Origin: a bacterium
GTDB taxonomy: Bacteria; Sumerlaeota; Sumerlaeia; SLMS01; JAHLLQ01
Length of the DNA stretch: 64,000 bases
Assembly: GCA_020444065.1 (NCBI GenBank)
Contig: JAHLLQ010000003.1
Span: 506,979 to 570,978 of the forward strand
Direction of reading: 5' to 3'
This document shows positions 30,851 to 38,153 of the stretch, one piece after another. The notes below the pieces were generated by a model, which saw only the letters and a program-made list of their open reading frames with translations, ran no database searches and was not told the DNA's origin. Both the position numbers and the translations under genes were made by a program. Each line of letters begins with the position of its first letter. Positions within the stretch are counted from its first letter, which is position 1.

Positions 30851-32401
30851 ATGCACGCGAGTCTCCCATCCTTTGTCGTGTTTGGAATCGATCCCCTTCT
30901 CGTTCGGGTAGAGGTTGACTGCGTCAGCGTCAACTCGATGGACAGCGTGACGTGGAGCATTGTTGGCCTGGCCGATGCCGCGGTGCGCGAAAGCCGCGAG
31001 CGCGTGAAGGCGGCGCTCAAGAATTCCGGTTATGCCGTCAGTCAGAAACGCATCACGGTGAACCTCGCGCCGGCGGATGTGCGCAAGGAAGGCAGCCATC
31101 TCGATCTGAGTATCGCGCTCGCCGTCTTGGCCAGCACGGGGCGATTGGATGCACGGCGCGCCGGGCGATTCGCCGCCCTCGGCGAGTTGGGCCTCGATGG
31201 CGGATTGAAGCCGGTCTCGGGCGCGCTGCCGATGGCGATCGGTGCGCGCAATGAGGGCCTCGATGGCCTGATTGTTCCGGAGGAGAACGCCGCCGAAGCA
31301 GCCTACGTCGAAGGCCTCCCCGTATACGGCGTGCGCCGGCTGACGGACGCGGTTGGATTCCTGCGCGGCGAGGCCGAGCTGTCTCCCACGCCGCCACCGC
31401 CTCCTGCGGATCGCGATGGCGAACGCGCGTTGCATTTGCCCGACATGGAAGATGTGCGCGGGCAGGAAAACGCGAAGCGCGCGCTCGAGGTCGCCGCCGC
31501 CGGCGGACACAATCTCCTTCTCATTGGTGCACCAGGCAGCGGCAAAACGATGCTGGCCAAGCGCATGCCGTCGATTCTGCCCGAGATGACATTCGAAGAA
31601 GCGATCGAGACGACGAAGATCTTCTCGATCAGCGGCCGACTCGATTCGCGTAACGGCCTGGTGCGTACGCGGCCGTTTCGTTCGCCGCATCACACGGCTT
31701 CGCACGTGGCCGTGGTCGGCGGCGGCGTGATGCCGCGCCCCGGCGAAGTAAGCCTGGCGCACAACGGGGTCTTGTTTCTGGACGAGTTCCCGGAGTTCTC
31801 GCGCCAGGTGCTCGAGGTCATGCGGCAACCGCTCGAAGACCGCGTCGTTCACATCAGCCGCGCGCAGATGTCACTCACATTTCCCGCCAGCTTCATTCTG
31901 GTTGCTGCGATGAATCCGTGCCCGTGCGGCTACGCAACGCATCCCGAAAAGCGCTGTATCTGCAACCCGATGCAGATACAGAAGTACATGGGGCGCATCA
32001 GCGGACCGTTGCTTGATCGCATCGATCTGCATGTCGACGTGGCGCCGGTGAAGATCGAGGACATTCACAATCGCAAGCCCGGCGAACCGAGCCGCGTTGT
32101 ACGCGAACGCGTCAATCGGGCGCGCACGGTACAGACGCGACGCTTCGCCAATCGCCCCGGCATGTTCTGCAACGCACAAATGACGAGCGCGGATCTAAAG
32201 AGCTACTGCGCGCTTTCGCCGGAAAGTCGCCAGCTTCTCGAGCAGGCAATGAAGGGCCTCAACCTCTCCGCCCGCGCGTACGATCGGATTTTGAAAGTCT
32301 CGAGAACCATCGCCGATCTCAACGGCGCGGAAGCGATCTCCGCCGAGCACATCAGCGAGGCGGTGCAATACCGCAACCTCGATCGCGAGAATTGGGTGTA
32401 G
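30851..32401 (+). CDS. comM: ComM/YifB-family Mg-chelatase-like AAA+ ATPase
   Basis: ComM is a hexameric helicase that promotes branch migration during natural transformation. The 516-residue protein has the N-terminal ChlI-like domain (TWSIVGLADAAVRESRERVKAAL), Walker A GAPGSGKT (about 227-234) and Walker B VLFLDEFPEF. NPCPCGY, a Cys-rich insert (EKRCICNP), sensor-arginine LLDRIDLHV and a C-terminal domain ending RNLDRENWV complete it. Length and motifs are intact. Its last nine codons plus 75 bases downstream recur imperfectly at 35036-35172, beyond a two-gene insert. This makes the comM 3' end a probable insertion target. Confidence 0.95.
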   Translation: MHASLPSFVVFGIDPLLVRVEVDCVSVNSMDSVTWSIVGLADAAVRESRERVKAALKNSGYAVSQKRITVNLAPADVRKEGSHLDLSIALAVLASTGRLDARRAGRFAALGELGLDGGLKPVSGALPMAIGARNEGLDGLIVPEENAAEAAYVEGLPVYGVRRLTDAVGFLRGEAELSPTPPPPPADRDGERALHLPDMEDVRGQENAKRALEVAAAGGHNLLLIGAPGSGKTMLAKRMPSILPEMTFEEAIETTKIFSISGRLDSRNGLVRTRPFRSPHHTASHVAVVGGGVMPRPGEVSLAHNGVLFLDEFPEFSRQVLEVMRQPLEDRVVHISRAQMSLTFPASFILVAAMNPCPCGYATHPEKRCICNPMQIQKYMGRISGPLLDRIDLHVDVAPVKIEDIHNRKPGEPSRVVRERVNRARTVQTRRFANRPGMFCNAQMTSADLKSYCALSPESRQLLEQAMKGLNLSARAYDRILKVSRTIADLNGAEAISAEHISEAVQYRNLDRENWV

Positions 32402-32407
32402 GATTTT
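32371..32407 (+). repeat. Left copy of the comM-tail direct repeat
   Basis: The comM 3' end CGCAACCTCGATCGCGAG-AATTGG plus TAG and GATTTT. It matches 35036-35072 at 34 of 37 positions. A second, weaker match follows at 32432-32482 (GGAGTCTCCCGGCC...TCGATGAATAGAGTGTCC) against 35121-35172. Together they look like the left attachment end or duplicated flank of the island. Confidence 0.75.
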
Positions 32408-32621
32408 GGCGCAGGGGCGGGAACCGAGAGAGGAGGAGTCTCCCGGCCAGAGGAGATGAGGATCGATGAATAGAGTGTCCGGTCCCCGGATTACCTCTGC
32501 TTCTATCAGCCTAACAACGGAAGGGGAATGTTGCCAGCAGTCGACTAGCTCTCTTTTCACGCTTGAGTGACCGTTAAGTACACTATCATTCGTTCCTATA
32601 GAACGCGAAGGGAATCGCAAC

Positions 32622-33491
32622 ATGTCTGAGTCGTTTGATCTCACAAAGGTCTCCGGTGATCAACTCATTGCCTTCTACGGACTGAACTTCGCCGCAGCAG
32701 AGACTGATGGCAGTATAGACAAAGATGAATTGACCAGCATTTTCGAAACGCTCGAATTGTCAACGCTCAATGAATCTCAGAGGGAAAGGGTTCGAGGATT
32801 CATCATCAAGCCTCCCGAAGCCGGTGCGATGCTTGATACAATCGCAAGAGGATCAGAGAAATTCCGCTATTCAGTGGCTGTCAGGATTATCGAGGTTCTG
32901 CTAGCGGATGACGTTATAACACCAGAAGAGGAGAAGTTCCTGGATGAAGTTTGCAGGCGTCTGATCGTGACGAATGAGCAGCAGAAAGCGATCATTGCTT
33001 TTGTCCAGGTTTCTCGGCGCATCGCACGGGAGGGAGTCGATGACAACAACGCCGAGAGGGCTTTGAAGGGTGCCGCAAGTGGACTTGCTGCCGTGGGTAT
33101 TCCTATTACTGCCGTCTATTTCAGTGGTTCTGTGGTCGGATTGAGCGCGGCAGGAATCACATCAGGACTGGCCGCCGTTGGTCTAGGAGTTGGAATGGTA
33201 CCAGGTATCGGAGTGGCCGTCCTTATTGGGACAGCCGTCTACTTTGGATTGAGAAAGGCCCTGGGTGACTCAAGGGCAACCAAGGAGAAGAAGTTGAGAG
33301 AGGAGCGGGAGCAAAAGGCACAGCGTGTGATCAGGAATTTACAGGATACGATCAATGGTGTACTTCAGAGCATTGCGGCGATGGAGGAGAAGGCAGCGGA
33401 AAGCGAGGCAAATCGAGAGATGATCAGGGTCCTTCGTGCACGAATGAACTCTCTGAATCGAATTCTTGAGCAGAAGAAAGCCAACGTGTAG
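32622..33491 (+). CDS. TerB-like protein with glycine-rich membrane-insertion region
   Basis: A 289-residue protein. Residues 15-135 form a TerB-like helical domain with two acidic loops, NFAAAETDGSIDKDEL and LLADDVITPEEEKFL. Residues about 150-215 are a long Gly/Ala-rich hydrophobic hairpin (SGLAAVGIPITAVYFSGSVVGL, then SGLAAVGLGVGMVPGIGVAV), like glycine-zipper membrane segments. The tail (215-289) is a charged coiled coil. There is no signal peptide. TerB-like domains occur in tellurite-resistance and phage-defence proteins, often as envelope-stress sensors. AAGGGA precedes the ATG. The next gene begins nine bases on. Base composition is clearly more AT-rich than in comM. The function is unknown. 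Confidence 0.65.
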   Translation: MSESFDLTKVSGDQLIAFYGLNFAAAETDGSIDKDELTSIFETLELSTLNESQRERVRGFIIKPPEAGAMLDTIARGSEKFRYSVAVRIIEVLLADDVITPEEEKFLDEVCRRLIVTNEQQKAIIAFVQVSRRIAREGVDDNNAERALKGAASGLAAVGIPITAVYFSGSVVGLSAAGITSGLAAVGLGVGMVPGIGVAVLIGTAVYFGLRKALGDSRATKEKKLREEREQKAQRVIRNLQDTINGVLQSIAAMEEKAAESEANREMIRVLRARMNSLNRILEQKKANV

Positions 33492-33500
33492 GAGACTTCG

Positions 33501-34901
33501 ATGACACATCATGACTGTGTTGTTGAGTTGCGGCAAGTTCTTACGGCCCAGCATCACCTGCTGGATCGTGTGAAAGAACGGCTTTCGCTCATCGAAGATG
33601 AGTTGGCCTGTACAAGTTCACAAGCACAAGAACTGAGAGATCTGAATACAGCCATGAATAGAATCGAGGAGAATGCCCATCTCCTTGAAGCGAGTGACAT
33701 GGCCGGCTGGGAAGACGATGAAGCACTTCTTGAGCGGGCAGAACGTTCGAGGCAGTCCCACAGTAAGGCGATTGAAGCTTTCCAATATAGCAACTGGAAC
33801 CAGTTCGTTCGTGACAGCCAGGCCTATTGCCTTGCGAATAAGACCGAGTTGATTCTTCCCTGGGAGGCCTTCCTTACGGATGACGACTTCGCTTCTCTCA
33901 AGAGCGAGTCCTACTCGGAACAGTATCGCTGGGACAAGTGGGACTACATCCTCGTTGGAGCAGCAGGAGTACTTGCGTTCCTCACCGATTGCTTTCTCGT
34001 CACCATTCCTGCTGACATGACATCAGGTATCTTTGCAGGGCAGAAGGGAAGCGTCATAACGAAACGTCTCCATGAAATACGCCTCCCCAAGAACGTCCAG
34101 GACTGGTTGGAACTGGCTAAAGTGCCGTATGATCGAACCGGTGGCCCAAACCATCGAATTGATACGTTTGGACATGATCCGGTCATCGGGTTGATTGTGG
34201 GTGTCTTGGACATCTTCAGAGGGACTGCAACGACTATAAAGGGGGGCACAATTACTTCCGAGTCAGTGGCGGGAACTCCCGGCCTTGGACTGACGGAATC
34301 CATCATTATACAGATCCTGCACTTGCTATCGGACGCTTTCACAAAGAAGGGGTTGCCGATTCCGTTTTCCTCCGTTTTACGCGCCCTCAATAGTGGAAGT
34401 TTTGTTGGACCGTCCGGAAAGTCCAGAACCATCAGTGATCTGACTCGATGGATGTACCATCACGGATATGATCTCAGGCATTTCATGACGATGAGCATTA
34501 CTCCCGCCACTATTGAGATCATCCTTCGCGCATATATCATGATTCGGCATTATGTCGAGAAGGGGGAGATCAAATTCCTCCTCGCCGATAACCCCAAATA
34601 CCGGAGTATGCTTCTGTCCGCGCATGCTATCGCCTGTGCAGGGAATGCAGGGAAAATCTCTCTGTTGCAGGGAAACCCTCTGGCTATCAACTATGCCGAA
34701 TGGCTTGCCTTGATTCGGTACTTACTGCCATCGCTCAAGTATTGGGTTTTTGATCGGCGCAAACTCGAGTTGGAACATATGAGAAGACTGAATGATGAAG
34801 GTTGGGATCAGCTACTTGCTGCATCAGACGAGCTCCTCACGAAGACATATCAGAAGGAAGACGCTGTCTTTGTGCTCGGTGCTGAGGAGGCTCCAACATA
34901 G
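33501..34901 (+). CDS. Coiled-coil membrane protein, partner of the TerB-like protein
   Basis: A 466-residue protein that I do not recognise. Residues 10-100 are coiled coil (LLDRVKERLSLIEDELACTSSQ). A clear membrane segment lies at about 148-170 (DYILVGAAGVLAFLTDCFLV). Further hydrophobic stretches at about 225-250 (GLIVGVLDIFRG) and 375-415 (LLSAHAIACAGNAGKI, YAEWLALIRYLLPSLKYWVF) may be membrane-associated. No nuclease, kinase or NTPase motif is seen. GGAG sits about six bases before its ATG, right after the TerB-like stop, so the two form an operon. Both share the island's lower GC. I infer that the two proteins act together at the membrane. Confidence 0.65.
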   Translation: MTHHDCVVELRQVLTAQHHLLDRVKERLSLIEDELACTSSQAQELRDLNTAMNRIEENAHLLEASDMAGWEDDEALLERAERSRQSHSKAIEAFQYSNWNQFVRDSQAYCLANKTELILPWEAFLTDDDFASLKSESYSEQYRWDKWDYILVGAAGVLAFLTDCFLVTIPADMTSGIFAGQKGSVITKRLHEIRLPKNVQDWLELAKVPYDRTGGPNHRIDTFGHDPVIGLIVGVLDIFRGTATTIKGGTITSESVAGTPGLGLTESIIIQILHLLSDAFTKKGLPIPFSSVLRALNSGSFVGPSGKSRTISDLTRWMYHHGYDLRHFMTMSITPATIEIILRAYIMIRHYVEKGEIKFLLADNPKYRSMLLSAHAIACAGNAGKISLLQGNPLAINYAEWLALIRYLLPSLKYWVFDRRKLELEHMRRLNDEGWDQLLAASDELLTKTYQKEDAVFVLGAEEAPT

Positions 34902-35035
34902 ATCTGCCTGAGGAGCATTTCGAACCAGGGAGGACGCGTAGAGCATCATCGCCCTCTTTCTGCTGAAGGAGTCGTTACTCGCCCTACTTCCGCAATCCAC
35001 TGCGGGCAAAACGACGACAGGACACTTCTCTCTCA

Positions 35036-35072
35036 CCGCAATCTTGATCGCAAGAATTGGGTGTAGGATTTT
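35036..35072 (+). repeat. Right copy of the comM-tail direct repeat
   Basis: It still encodes RNLDRKNWV and a TAG stop, equal to the comM C-terminus except Lys for Glu. Two of the three differences from the left copy are silent third positions. This fits descent from a coding comM end rather than chance. No upstream comM reading frame is attached. Confidence 0.75.
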
Positions 35073-35077
35073 AGAGC

Positions 35078-35122
35078 CGGCAGAAACCCAGCGAGGACGG
35101 TTACGGCAGAAACCCAGCGAGG
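35078..35122 (+). repeat. Tandem 19-bp direct repeat in the island's right flank
   Basis: CGGCAGAAACCCAGCGAGG occurs twice with a 26-base period, and a partial third GGAAACCCAG lies near 35186. It is followed by the second block similar to 32432-32482. The 34902-35217 gap holds only these repeats. Confidence 0.7.
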
Positions 35123-35217
35123 GGGAGTCTTTCGGCCGGATGGAGATGACGTTCGATGAATAGAGTATCCTGTGCTCGTATGCTCGGAAACCCAGACGGC
35201 AGGAAGAGAGAGTCACA

Positions 35218-35805
35218 TTGAGTCTGAAGCGACGATCCATGAAAGTGGCCACAGTTCTAGCAGCGGCCGGCTTGGTGTTCGGTGTATTTGTGTGCCTCCC
35301 TCTTGTCGTGCCTAAGCCCCACCCTGCCCCTGTCTTTCGCAGGGCTATGAGCCAAATCGCGCATCTTGGATGGAGAATATCTTCCGGCTACAATTCCTCA
35401 GAGGAGGATCTCTGTGATTTGTCGTCAAGGATCAGATCCGAGTGGGAGCCTCGAGAAAAAGATCGGCTGGACTATCCGATCGAGGCGTTCTGCACGACGG
35501 AGACGCTGATTCTTCTCTACCCAGGCGCAAATGGGCATTCAGCACTGACTCAATCGGAATATCGCGACCTGTATCTGGCTGATTATGATTACCCATCAAG
35601 CCTGACCTTGCTTCTTGATTCAGATGACATTGTGAGCGTCTGGCTCATGTACGACGGGGAGTTGATGCGATCAATGGAGACCGTTCCAGCAGGTCAGAGA
35701 TCAGGGCATCGAAGGTTCTTCTATCACCTTGAGGGTAAGGATTTCACGATTCCGCAAGACCCAATCGCAATTGCCCCATCTCAGAATGGCGTTGGGCGCG
35801 ATTGA
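35218..35805 (+). CDS. Membrane-anchored protein of unknown function
   Basis: A 195-residue protein: basic start, one hydrophobic segment (VATVLAAAGLVFGVFVCLPLVV) and a soluble, probably periplasmic domain rich in Tyr, Asp and Ser. TTG is chosen because AGGAAGAGAG lies about ten bases upstream; ATG at 35239 has no site. No family is recognised. It is the first gene after the island and may lead the pilin-like array, which starts 28 bases later. Confidence 0.6.
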   Translation: MSLKRRSMKVATVLAAAGLVFGVFVCLPLVVPKPHPAPVFRRAMSQIAHLGWRISSGYNSSEEDLCDLSSRIRSEWEPREKDRLDYPIEAFCTTETLILLYPGANGHSALTQSEYRDLYLADYDYPSSLTLLLDSDDIVSVWLMYDGELMRSMETVPAGQRSGHRRFFYHLEGKDFTIPQDPIAIAPSQNGVGRD

Positions 35806-35833: not shown

Positions 35834-36280
35834 TTGGCGAGGCCGAGCAAACCAAAGATGCCACCCGCTTGTCCGCGGCGGTTCTGGAGGAAATACGTCC
35901 TCGCGCTTCTCCTCTCCCTATTTCTGTTGAGCCTGGCAGTTTCTGTTTATGAAATCCGCAGCGATTACAAACGGCGCCAAGCGATCATCAAGTCATGTAT
36001 CCAGAATCAGAATGCCATTTATTCTTCCGTTCTCCAGTTCATGGAGCAGGAAGGCATTGAAGACCTCGATACGGCTATGGAGATCCTGGGAACGGAGCAA
36101 TCCCAGTGGAGCGAGAAGCTGGTCGGGCCAGGGAAGTTCATGCGATATAATCCGAGGTGTCCAATGGGTCCCTCGCATGGCGAAAGCGACTTCAGCCTGC
36201 GTATCGAAGATGGGCATCTTGTCGTGATCTGCAACCCGGGGATTGAATCGCACCGAATGAAGGCGTTCGCAGGATCGTAG
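35834..36280 (+). CDS. Pilin-like membrane-anchored Cys protein, divergent member of tandem family
   Basis: About 148 residues. A basic N-terminus is followed by one membrane helix (YVLALLLSLFLLSLAVSVYEI). The globular part starts KSCIQNQNAIYSSVLQFMEQEG and includes ILGTEQSQWSEKLVGPGKFMRYNPRCP, ending with a Cys in VVICNPG. The three-Cys layout and the GTEQ.W....VG..(F/Y)(M/I)RY.P.CP motif align it with the three closely related genes at 36.6-38.2 kb, though it is more diverged. I chose TTG with GGGGAG five bases upstream; ATG at 35858 is the alternative. Confidence 0.6.
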   Translation: MARPSKPKMPPACPRRFWRKYVLALLLSLFLLSLAVSVYEIRSDYKRRQAIIKSCIQNQNAIYSSVLQFMEQEGIEDLDTAMEILGTEQSQWSEKLVGPGKFMRYNPRCPMGPSHGESDFSLRIEDGHLVVICNPGIESHRMKAFAGS

Positions 36281-36369
36281 AACAATCAGCTTGTCGGGGG
36301 ACGACGATTTTTATAGACAGTGGGTGAGAGAAAGGGGCGACGGATGGGTGCAATCACGGAGAAGATTCG

Positions 36370-36519
36370 ATGAAACAGATCCTGGCCGCCGGGCCTTTGT
36401 CACGGACGGAGAAGCAAATCCTGATCGTCATCGCCGTGTTGCTCGCGATGATCGTTGTGCCGATGCTGTTGGGTATTGATCCGGGGGCTGCTGCATCTGC
36501 ACCCGTGGCGGGTTCGTAG
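36370..36519 (+). CDS. 49-residue single-pass membrane protein
   Basis: A short gene with GGAGAAG just before the ATG and one membrane helix (QILIVIAVLLAMIVVPMLLG), ending in a small Gly/Ala/Ser tail (AASAPVAGS). It lies between two members of the pilin-like array and may be an accessory subunit or a truncated member that kept only the anchor. The stop codon adjoins a copy of the CACGAAGG-type repeat. Confidence 0.5.
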   Translation: MKQILAAGPLSRTEKQILIVIAVLLAMIVVPMLLGIDPGAAASAPVAGS

Positions 36520-36580
36520 AAGTTCACCACCCGCCTTCGCGAAACGCTGCGGCGCGGGCGAAGGCACGAAGAACACGAAG
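36516..36580 (+). repeat. CACGAAGG-type repeat interrupted by a GCGAAGG hairpin insert
   Basis: GTAGAAGTTCACCAC is separated from CGAAGGCACGAAGAACACGAAG by about 28 bases. With its edges, the insert forms a CCTTCGC / GCGAAGG inverted repeat. Uninterrupted copies lie at 37078 and 37638. It looks like one palindromic repeat nested in another. Confidence 0.6.
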
Positions 36581-36601
36581 GGGGAAGAGCAGGAGGAGGT
36601 T

Positions 36602-37081
36602 GTGAACATCCACCGGATGAAGAAGCCTGAGTTGGAGTCGCCCGTGTGGGCGTGGCTCGTGAAGGGGCTGGTGATTTTGGGTGGCTTGTTTCTGATCGGG
36701 TTTCTTGCGTATGGTCTCGGTTCCTACCTGTTTCGTCCTCGCGAGACCTCGGCTCGGAACTCGTGCCAGGAGACGATGACGAAGATCGATTCGGCGGTGC
36801 AGCAGTATCTTCTGGAGTACAACTTGGAGGATCAGGCGGAGTTCGTGGCGCTCTTCGGAACGGAGCAGCCGGACTGGTCGCCTGTGCTTGTGGGGAAGGA
36901 TCTGTACATTCGATACCCCCCGAGGTGCCCGCTACACAAGTCGCCACCATTCTGGAAGTTCTGGCGGTGGTGGGAACCGTCAAATGACTACTCGATCGCG
37001 ACAAGCGCTGATGTCGCTTCGCCAGTGGTGTGCAACGCTTCCGGAGGGAGGCATTACTATCCGACGGCATCGGGTTCGTAG
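36602..37081 (+). CDS. Pilin-like membrane-anchored Cys protein, tandem paralog 2
   Basis: A 159-residue protein with a membrane helix at about 18-42 (WLVKGLVILGGLFLIGFLAYGLG). The globular domain begins NSCQETMTKIDSAVQQYLLEY and continues EFVALFGTEQPDWSPVLVGKDLY, RYPPRCP, W-rich WKFWRWW, NDYSIA and a last Cys in VVCNASG. C....(I/M)DSAVQQ...P.CP....Y.I....P..C resembles the globular part of GspG-like pseudopilins in PVC-group bacteria, but the FTLIEL leader is absent. GTG is chosen because AGGAGG lies five bases upstream. Confidence 0.65.
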   Translation: MNIHRMKKPELESPVWAWLVKGLVILGGLFLIGFLAYGLGSYLFRPRETSARNSCQETMTKIDSAVQQYLLEYNLEDQAEFVALFGTEQPDWSPVLVGKDLYIRYPPRCPLHKSPPFWKFWRWWEPSNDYSIATSADVASPVVCNASGGRHYYPTASGS

Positions 37082-37121
37082 GAATTCACCACGAAGGCAC
37101 GAAGGACACGAAGAAGGTGGA
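37078..37121 (+). repeat. 44-bp CACGAAGG direct repeat, copy 1
   Basis: GTAGGAATTCACCACGAAGG... ending GAAGAAGGTGGA is identical over 44 bases to 37638-37681. It contains the stop codon of the preceding gene, and its final AAGGTGGA is the ribosome binding site of the next. CACGAAGGACACGAAG motifs are, as I recall, common intergenic repeats in many phyla. Confidence 0.8.
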
Positions 37122-37124
37122 GCG

Positions 37125-37616
37125 ATGAATCACGACGCGAAACCGGAGAAGCCGGACGCCGTTTCGGAAGGATGGAAACGGAAGTTGAAGCGAGGTTGGA
37201 TCCTCGGCGGCGTGATGGCAATAGTGGTTGGTGCAATTCTCGGATGGCAGTTTCTTCTCAAGCCCCACTTGGCGTATCCCTGGAAACCTTGCCAGGAGAA
37301 TCTTTCCAAGATCGATTCCGCCGTGCAGCAGTATATTCTCGAATATGGCCTGAAGGATCAGGAGGAGTTTGTCGCGCTGTTCGGAACGGAGCAGCCGGAC
37401 TGGTCGCCTGTGCTTGTCGGGAAAGACCTGTACCTCCGGTATCCACCAAAGTGCTCTGCTCAGCCTCACCCGCGGTGGTGGCAGTTCTGGCACTGGGGAG
37501 AGAAGTTGAACGACTACTTCATCGCACCAAACTATGATTGGCCGGCGCCAGTGTATTGCAACTCCGGCCAACCGGGGCATACGTTCCCCATGCTATCCGA
37601 CGCCCACCCCGACTGA
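37125..37616 (+). CDS. Pilin-like membrane-anchored Cys protein, tandem paralog 3
   Basis: A 163-residue protein with a basic N-terminus and a membrane helix (WILGGVMAIVVGAILGWQFLL). The domain reads CQENLSKIDSAVQQYILEYGLKD..., then EFVALFGTEQPDWSPVLVGK, YLRYPPKC, WWQFWHWG, NDYFIA and VYCNSG. It is very close to paralog 2: the stretch around GGAACGGAGCAGCCGGACTGG is unchanged over about 38 bases between 36855 and 37380, showing recent duplication. Its ribosome binding site is supplied by the 44-bp repeat. No catalytic motif is seen. Confidence 0.68.
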   Translation: MNHDAKPEKPDAVSEGWKRKLKRGWILGGVMAIVVGAILGWQFLLKPHLAYPWKPCQENLSKIDSAVQQYILEYGLKDQEEFVALFGTEQPDWSPVLVGKDLYLRYPPKCSAQPHPRWWQFWHWGEKLNDYFIAPNYDWPAPVYCNSGQPGHTFPMLSDAHPD

Positions 37617-37637
37617 GGAGAGTAGCAGTGCTGGAGA

Positions 37638-37681
37638 GTAGGAATTCACCACGAAGGCACGAAGGACACGAAGAAGGTGGA
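37638..37681 (+). repeat. 44-bp CACGAAGG direct repeat, copy 2
   Basis: Identical to 37078-37121. Here it supplies the AAGGTGGA part of the ribosome binding site of paralog 4. A further decayed relative lies at about 38151-38190 (GCACCACAGAGGGGCGAAGGACACGAAAG), after the last paralog. Confidence 0.8.
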
Positions 37682-37688
37682 GGAGGAT

Positions 37689-38153
37689 ATGGACGTTAGC
37701 CAGGACGAGCAGCCGGAAGTGCAAGAGGCGCAGGGGTGGTTTCGGAGGAATCGGCGAGGTTTTCTGGTGTGCCTTTTCATTGTCTTGATCATCGTAGCAC
37801 TCGCATTGCCTGCGTTTCTGGAAGCGCCTTATTACCCTCACGTCAATCGTTGTCCACAGAATCAGATGATGATCAATTCAGCGGTGCAGCAGTACATTTT
37901 GGAATACGGCTTAAAGGGCCAGGAGGAATTCGTGGCGCTGTTCGGTACGGAGCAGCCGGACTGGTCGCCAGTAATCGTGGGGAAGGGCTTGTATCTTCGA
38001 CATCCGCCGCACTGTCCTGCTCATCCTCGCTCGCCCTGGTGGAAGTTCAAAAAGCTGAATGACTACTCGATCGCGGACAGTGACGATGCGGATTCGCCGG
38101 TGTACTGTAATACTTGCCCGGACAAGCATCCGTATCCGATGGCTGGGGAGTAG
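37689..38153 (+). CDS. Pilin-like membrane-anchored Cys protein, tandem paralog 4
   Basis: A 154-residue protein: acidic first 15 residues, then RRNRRG and a membrane helix (FLVCLFIVLIIVALALPAFL). The domain reads CPQNQMMINSAVQQYILEYGLKG, EFVALFGTEQPDWSPVIVGKGLY, RHPPHCPAHP, NDYSIA and PVYCNTCPDKHPYP. Unlike the others it carries a second Cys near the end (CNTC). GTGGAGGAGG lies directly upstream of the ATG. It is the last gene of the array, before a shared terminator. Confidence 0.68.
   Translation: MDVSQDEQPEVQEAQGWFRRNRRGFLVCLFIVLIIVALALPAFLEAPYYPHVNRCPQNQMMINSAVQQYILEYGLKGQEEFVALFGTEQPDWSPVIVGKGLYLRHPPHCPAHPRSPWWKFKKLNDYSIADSDDADSPVYCNTCPDKHPYPMAGE

Follow-up and report, generated by a model that had tools for sequence, protein, structure and literature searches.

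Next to comM, in the 64-kb window (the whole 64,000-nucleotide stretch that was analyzed), are two adjacent genes that resemble bnzA and bnzB of the Bunzi anti-phage system, flanked by two copies, E1 and E2, of a dispersed element referred to here as E. The features, with coordinates of the window and strand, are as follows.

30851..32401 (+): comM, intact, 516 aa (ORF; 69-70% identity to same-family comM)
32370..32415 (+): native copy of the comM tail, comprising the last ~10 codons, the stop codon and following bases (repeat family D1)
32415..32495 (+): E1, a right-end fragment of E with no left end (84-85% identity to other E copies; inverted-end profile match)
32622..33491 (+): bnzA-like gene, 289 aa (PADLOC BnzA, E=2.2e-42)
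33501..34901 (+): bnzB-like gene, 466 aa (PADLOC BnzB, E=2.3e-72, nearly full length)
35005..35030 (+): left inverted end of E2, GGCAAAACGACGACAGGACACTTCTC (left-end profile, 17.3 bits)
35035..35080 (+): comM-tail copy within E2 (40/46 identical to the native tail)
35078..35122 (+): local tandem duplication in E2, period 26 (repeat family D4)
35105..35185 (+): right end of E2 (87% identity to other E copies; profile match)
35218..35805 (+): gene after E2, family unknown, low GC (ORF, composition)

The comM tail and the Bunzi-like operon

The tail of comM recurs as a direct repeat, identified by a repeat search of the window, in which positions 32370-32415 and 35035-35080 are 87% identical over 46 nt (40/46 bases). 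An earlier note on this DNA had reported a stretch with 34 of 37 matches, and its description of the three mismatches as two silent third positions and one GAG to AAG change (Glu to Lys) is borne out, with a local score of 34 for the repeat against a maximum of 14 for about 500 random 120-mers from the window. A search of the genome with either copy gave no third comM tail. The native gene ends in LDRENWV, compared with LDRGNWMG in the order-level relative G010, and its C-terminus looks native. From genus to genus the order of the genes around comM changes, and it differs in all same-family genomes compared.

The bnzB-like gene starts 9 nt after the bnzA-like gene, and the two are presumed to function as a membrane-associated anti-phage module. 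The Bunzi system (BnzA and BnzB) is listed with PF05099 TerB (PMC10952713). Because the BnzA match covers only profile positions 170-442 of 544, the operon is named Bunzi-like. The BnzA-like protein comprises a TerB-like helical domain, a glycine-rich hydrophobic stretch and C-terminal helices; its Pfam DUF533/TerB match falls just below the cut-off, and the N-terminal part of its predicted model shows a weak resemblance to 2H5N (E 0.08). For the BnzB-like protein, the AlphaFold model is too poor for use (mean pLDDT 38) and no relative was found among solved structures. It is 47-57% identical to three homologues, each adjoining a bnzA homologue with the order of the pair kept (L031, L032, L033), and these nearest pairs found belong to a delta-proteobacterial MAG, a Verrucomicrobiaceae MAG and Anaerovirgula. 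The locus has in common with Bunzi systems that both proteins match the PADLOC models and that their genes are adjacent in the same order as in three other genomes, whereas the BnzA proteins of this locus and of the three homologous pairs are compact (289-303 aa) relative to the 544-position model and lack its full-length architecture. Neither comM nor flanking repeats were found at the three homologous loci. Two genes resembling an AbiE-type toxin-antitoxin pair adjoin the Anaerovirgula homologue (L032 8126-9564) and a recombinase-like gene lies close to it (L032 9771-11633), all named by eye.

The GC content of the bnzA-like and bnzB-like genes is 0.51, versus 0.63 for comM and 0.62 for leuS, as the earlier note had anticipated in calling them more AT-rich, and their codon use is atypical with a lower codon fit. 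Their distribution is patchy, with BnzB absent from 60 other genomes searched, 39 of them from the same phylum. Low GC, atypical codons, this absence and nearest homologues in the taxa named above make the two genes look foreign, and horizontal gain of bnzAB is likely; the locus adds a compact Bunzi-like operon to a lineage where 0/39 other phylum genomes searched have one. The deviation in GC and codon use proposed for 32.4-35.2 kb is present but not confined to that interval, as the low-GC stretch extends past E2 to about 36.3 kb, and the end of the island at the repeat is therefore not set by composition alone. A tandem family of short membrane-anchored proteins (CxxNxxxIxSAVQQYxLEYxLxD...) occupies positions 35858-38153 of the window; among its 19 genomic matches is a second array, at C5:48-54 kb, and homologues occur in 12/12 relatives searched.

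Element E and its two copies behind comM

A genome search with either copy of the repeat matches the part behind the comM tail at many further places, but the tail itself at none. That part belongs to E, a dispersed foldback element of ~230 bp for which a consensus search found 19 DNA-level copies in the genome and 0 copies in 40 relatives, four of these same-family; copies were counted by sequence search. The second matching block described earlier does exist (32452-32491 versus 35142-35181; 83% over 40 nt) but is not specific to this pair, since the 19 DNA-level copies of E all belong to the repeat whose end it forms; the block behind the comM tail is one end of a dispersed foldback element rather than a private duplication. 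Full copies form strong foldbacks (-100.8 kcal/mol over 244 nt), and identity averages 81% over all E pairs. The ends are imperfect inverted repeats, with the consensus left end CGGGGACAGGATACTC including GGGGACAG and the right end its imperfect inverse. Reading the flanks of full copies by eye revealed no clear target-site duplications. A coding function for E was rejected on the basis of indels that break the common frame between copies, and identity as a known RNA was rejected with no Rfam family on the E copies. An Acido-Lenti-1 RNA match near threshold (35.4 bits versus gathering 37) lies at L052 1772-1817.

Just inside the left end, several copies encode a peptide such as MARPARIVLPGVPHHETHRGNR, which we take to be the N-terminus of RAYT-type transposases. 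The element holds the remnant of a RAYT/TIRYT transposase N-terminus (MARPARIVLPGVPHH) corresponding to the first ~20 codons. A PF01797 member at C2:666672 starts MARTARIILPGKPHHVLQRG; this RAYT-like gene (L061, C2:666672-666965), the one such gene found, is without E-like ends and has NRVH where the HUH motif is expected, and is possibly inactive or of a divergent group. At the start of contig C7 (L053 1-343, minus strand), an internally deleted RAYT-like gene has its N-terminal part joined to a GRPLGDGGFVRWLERLLGRSLAPKKPGRPRK C-terminus. No intact transposase with E-matching ends was found in the genome, which is about 97% complete.

De Nocera 2013 (PMC3733652) gave the name TIRtrons to RAYT-like genes that have terminal inverted repeats with GGGGWSAS on either side, and described families of TIRtron-type repeats in some genomes; Quentin 2018 (PMC6006769) places most TIRtron transposases in one subclass, 2.1 TnpA-REP. 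The E end GGGGACAG fits the GGGGWSAS motif. Given inverted ends with this sequence and the RAYT/TIRYT N-terminus remnant, E is best read as a non-autonomous, internally deleted TIRtron. E and TIRtrons (PMC3733652, PMC6006769) have in common the GGGGWSAS inverted ends, the RAYT-type N-terminal peptide, a moderate copy number and the grouping of copies. E differs from TIRtrons in that no intact matching transposase was found in the genome, ~20 transposase codons are kept between the ends and one copy carries the tail of a host gene. REPINs and REP sequences with RAYTs (Bertels and Rainey 2011, PMC3116915) are also non-autonomous hairpin formers tied to an HUH Y1 transposase, but the ~230 bp of E with its long inverted ends contrast with the short, GTAG-tagged hairpins of REP. 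The parts of the locus, Bunzi-type genes and a TIRtron-type repeat, are of known kinds.

At the comM locus, E1 is fused a few bases behind the comM stop and E2 lies some 100 bp downstream of bnzB. A profile was assembled from left ends of other E copies alone and run over both strands of the window; its best three matches are the E1 and E2 right ends, in inverted reading, followed by the left end at 35005, which scores 17.3 bits compared with 10.5-12.6 for the next-best positions in the window. This left end is weaker than those of other E copies. From these matches, E2 (35005-35185) has two ends that enclose the comM-tail copy, and E1 consists of a right end only. The difference in length between E2 and E1 is due to the period-26 tandem duplication. 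Their right ends are 82% identical, in line with the mean of 81% for all E pairs, and have no rare states in common.

Probable copying of the comM tail into E2

Taken together, the locus is probably a horizontally acquired Bunzi-type (BnzAB) two-gene set lying between two non-autonomous E copies, with the comM tail copied into E2. The right-end fragment E1 lies directly behind comM, and during the spread of E the sequence of the comM-E1 junction would have been copied into E2, either with the common right ends as primers for ectopic conversion or template switching or through single-strand transposition that used a surrogate end. Conversion, surrogate-end transposition and circle recombination may be alternative routes by which the tail came to lie between the E2 ends. 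The divergence of the comM-tail copy, 3/37, is close to the per-copy divergence expected if the capture is as old as the spread of E, and with comM held by selection it is consistent with a copying event of about that age; the same divergence is also consistent with two separate E copies plus conversion of a short stretch. As the tail would have been copied from the comM-E1 junction into E2, the comM-tail repeat appears to be a by-product of E elements rather than an attachment site, and its most plausible origin is capture or conversion involving two copies of E, not an att-like duplication by an integrating island. The involvement of a mobile element, which the earlier note had proposed, is supported, and the locus illustrates how a dispersed transposon-derived element can produce a repeat resembling an integration footprint.

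Campbell-type recombination, in which a circle or fragment from a related strain carrying BnzAB, a comM tail and E joined the resident comM-E1 block, would produce the order comM-tail-E-cargo-tail-E in one step with the E copies serving as common homology. This route is unlikely, as it needs a donor in which a tail and E block already adjoined BnzAB, which only moves the problem, and E1 resembles E2 no more closely than E copies in general resemble one another.

Runs of E copies, cassettes and integrating islands

E copies also occur in runs of the same orientation spaced about 1 kb apart in this genome (G000), at C3:100.8-103.5 kb, C3:193.3-199.3 kb, C7:2.7-4.9 kb, C2:152.0-153.2 kb and C1:42.4-47.3 kb (loci L051, L052, L053, L054 and L088). 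Eleven neighboring DNA-level pairs are <3 kb apart, a number that never exceeded 3 when copies were placed at random 5000 times, and the common orientation of all copies within each run has a chance of about 3e-5 with the peptide-level remnants on C1 and about 2e-4 without them. Between successive copies lies one gene with a GC content of 0.48-0.55, and these genes, which include signal-peptidase-like and beta-lactamase-family genes, are mutually unrelated. No runs of this kind, with one gene between neighboring copies, appear in the passages on TIRtrons (PMC3733652, PMC6006769) drawn on here.

The close pairs, the common orientation and the unrelated single genes would agree with E copies delimiting cassettes, such that single foreign genes or operons enter, leave and are rearranged between E repeats through recombination at E, with BnzAB as one cassette. 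Integron gene cassettes likewise have same-orientation repeats with one gene between them, but differ from the E runs in that the genome has no integron integrase match over the TIGR02249 cut-off and the E consensus has no attC core sites (GTTRRRY/RYYYAAC) on either strand; an integron cassette array proper was rejected on these two results, as was tandem duplication of gene and E units, the genes between copies being unrelated. No cassette was seen at two places, and same-orientation runs would also be expected if E inserted with a strand bias where GC is low, which is the simpler account; E-delimited cassettes are improbable. If E copies do delimit exchangeable genes, they would offer a route for shuffling accessory and defense genes that requires no integron integrase. 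The more extended proposal, that RAYT/TIRYT-derived elements bound exchangeable single-gene cassettes without an integron integrase and that one of these holds the Bunzi-like operon, its flanking element having transduced the comM tail, is more doubtful.

Insertion of an integrative element at the comM 3′ end, which would have duplicated or replaced that end and brought BnzAB as cargo with its integrase lost or acting in trans, was favored by the earlier note and agrees with a direct repeat of the comM 3′ end around foreign genes and with the absence of BnzAB from relatives, but is quite unlikely given that the distal tail is enclosed by the inverted ends of E, the comM end looks native, homologous BnzAB loci are without such repeats and none of the genome's phage-integrase-family (PF00589) genes (0/8) is near the locus; an att-site island is rejected as the main reading because the repeat consists largely of a dispersed TIRtron-type element and, as the earlier note had correctly observed, no recombinase lies between the repeats, where bnzA and bnzB are the only supported genes. 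The comM islands of Acinetobacter (AbaR type) carry Tn6019/Tn7-like genes. The present locus has no such genes, its comM is intact and the foreign DNA lies behind the stop codon, and what it has in common with the AbaR-type islands is that foreign DNA adjoins comM.
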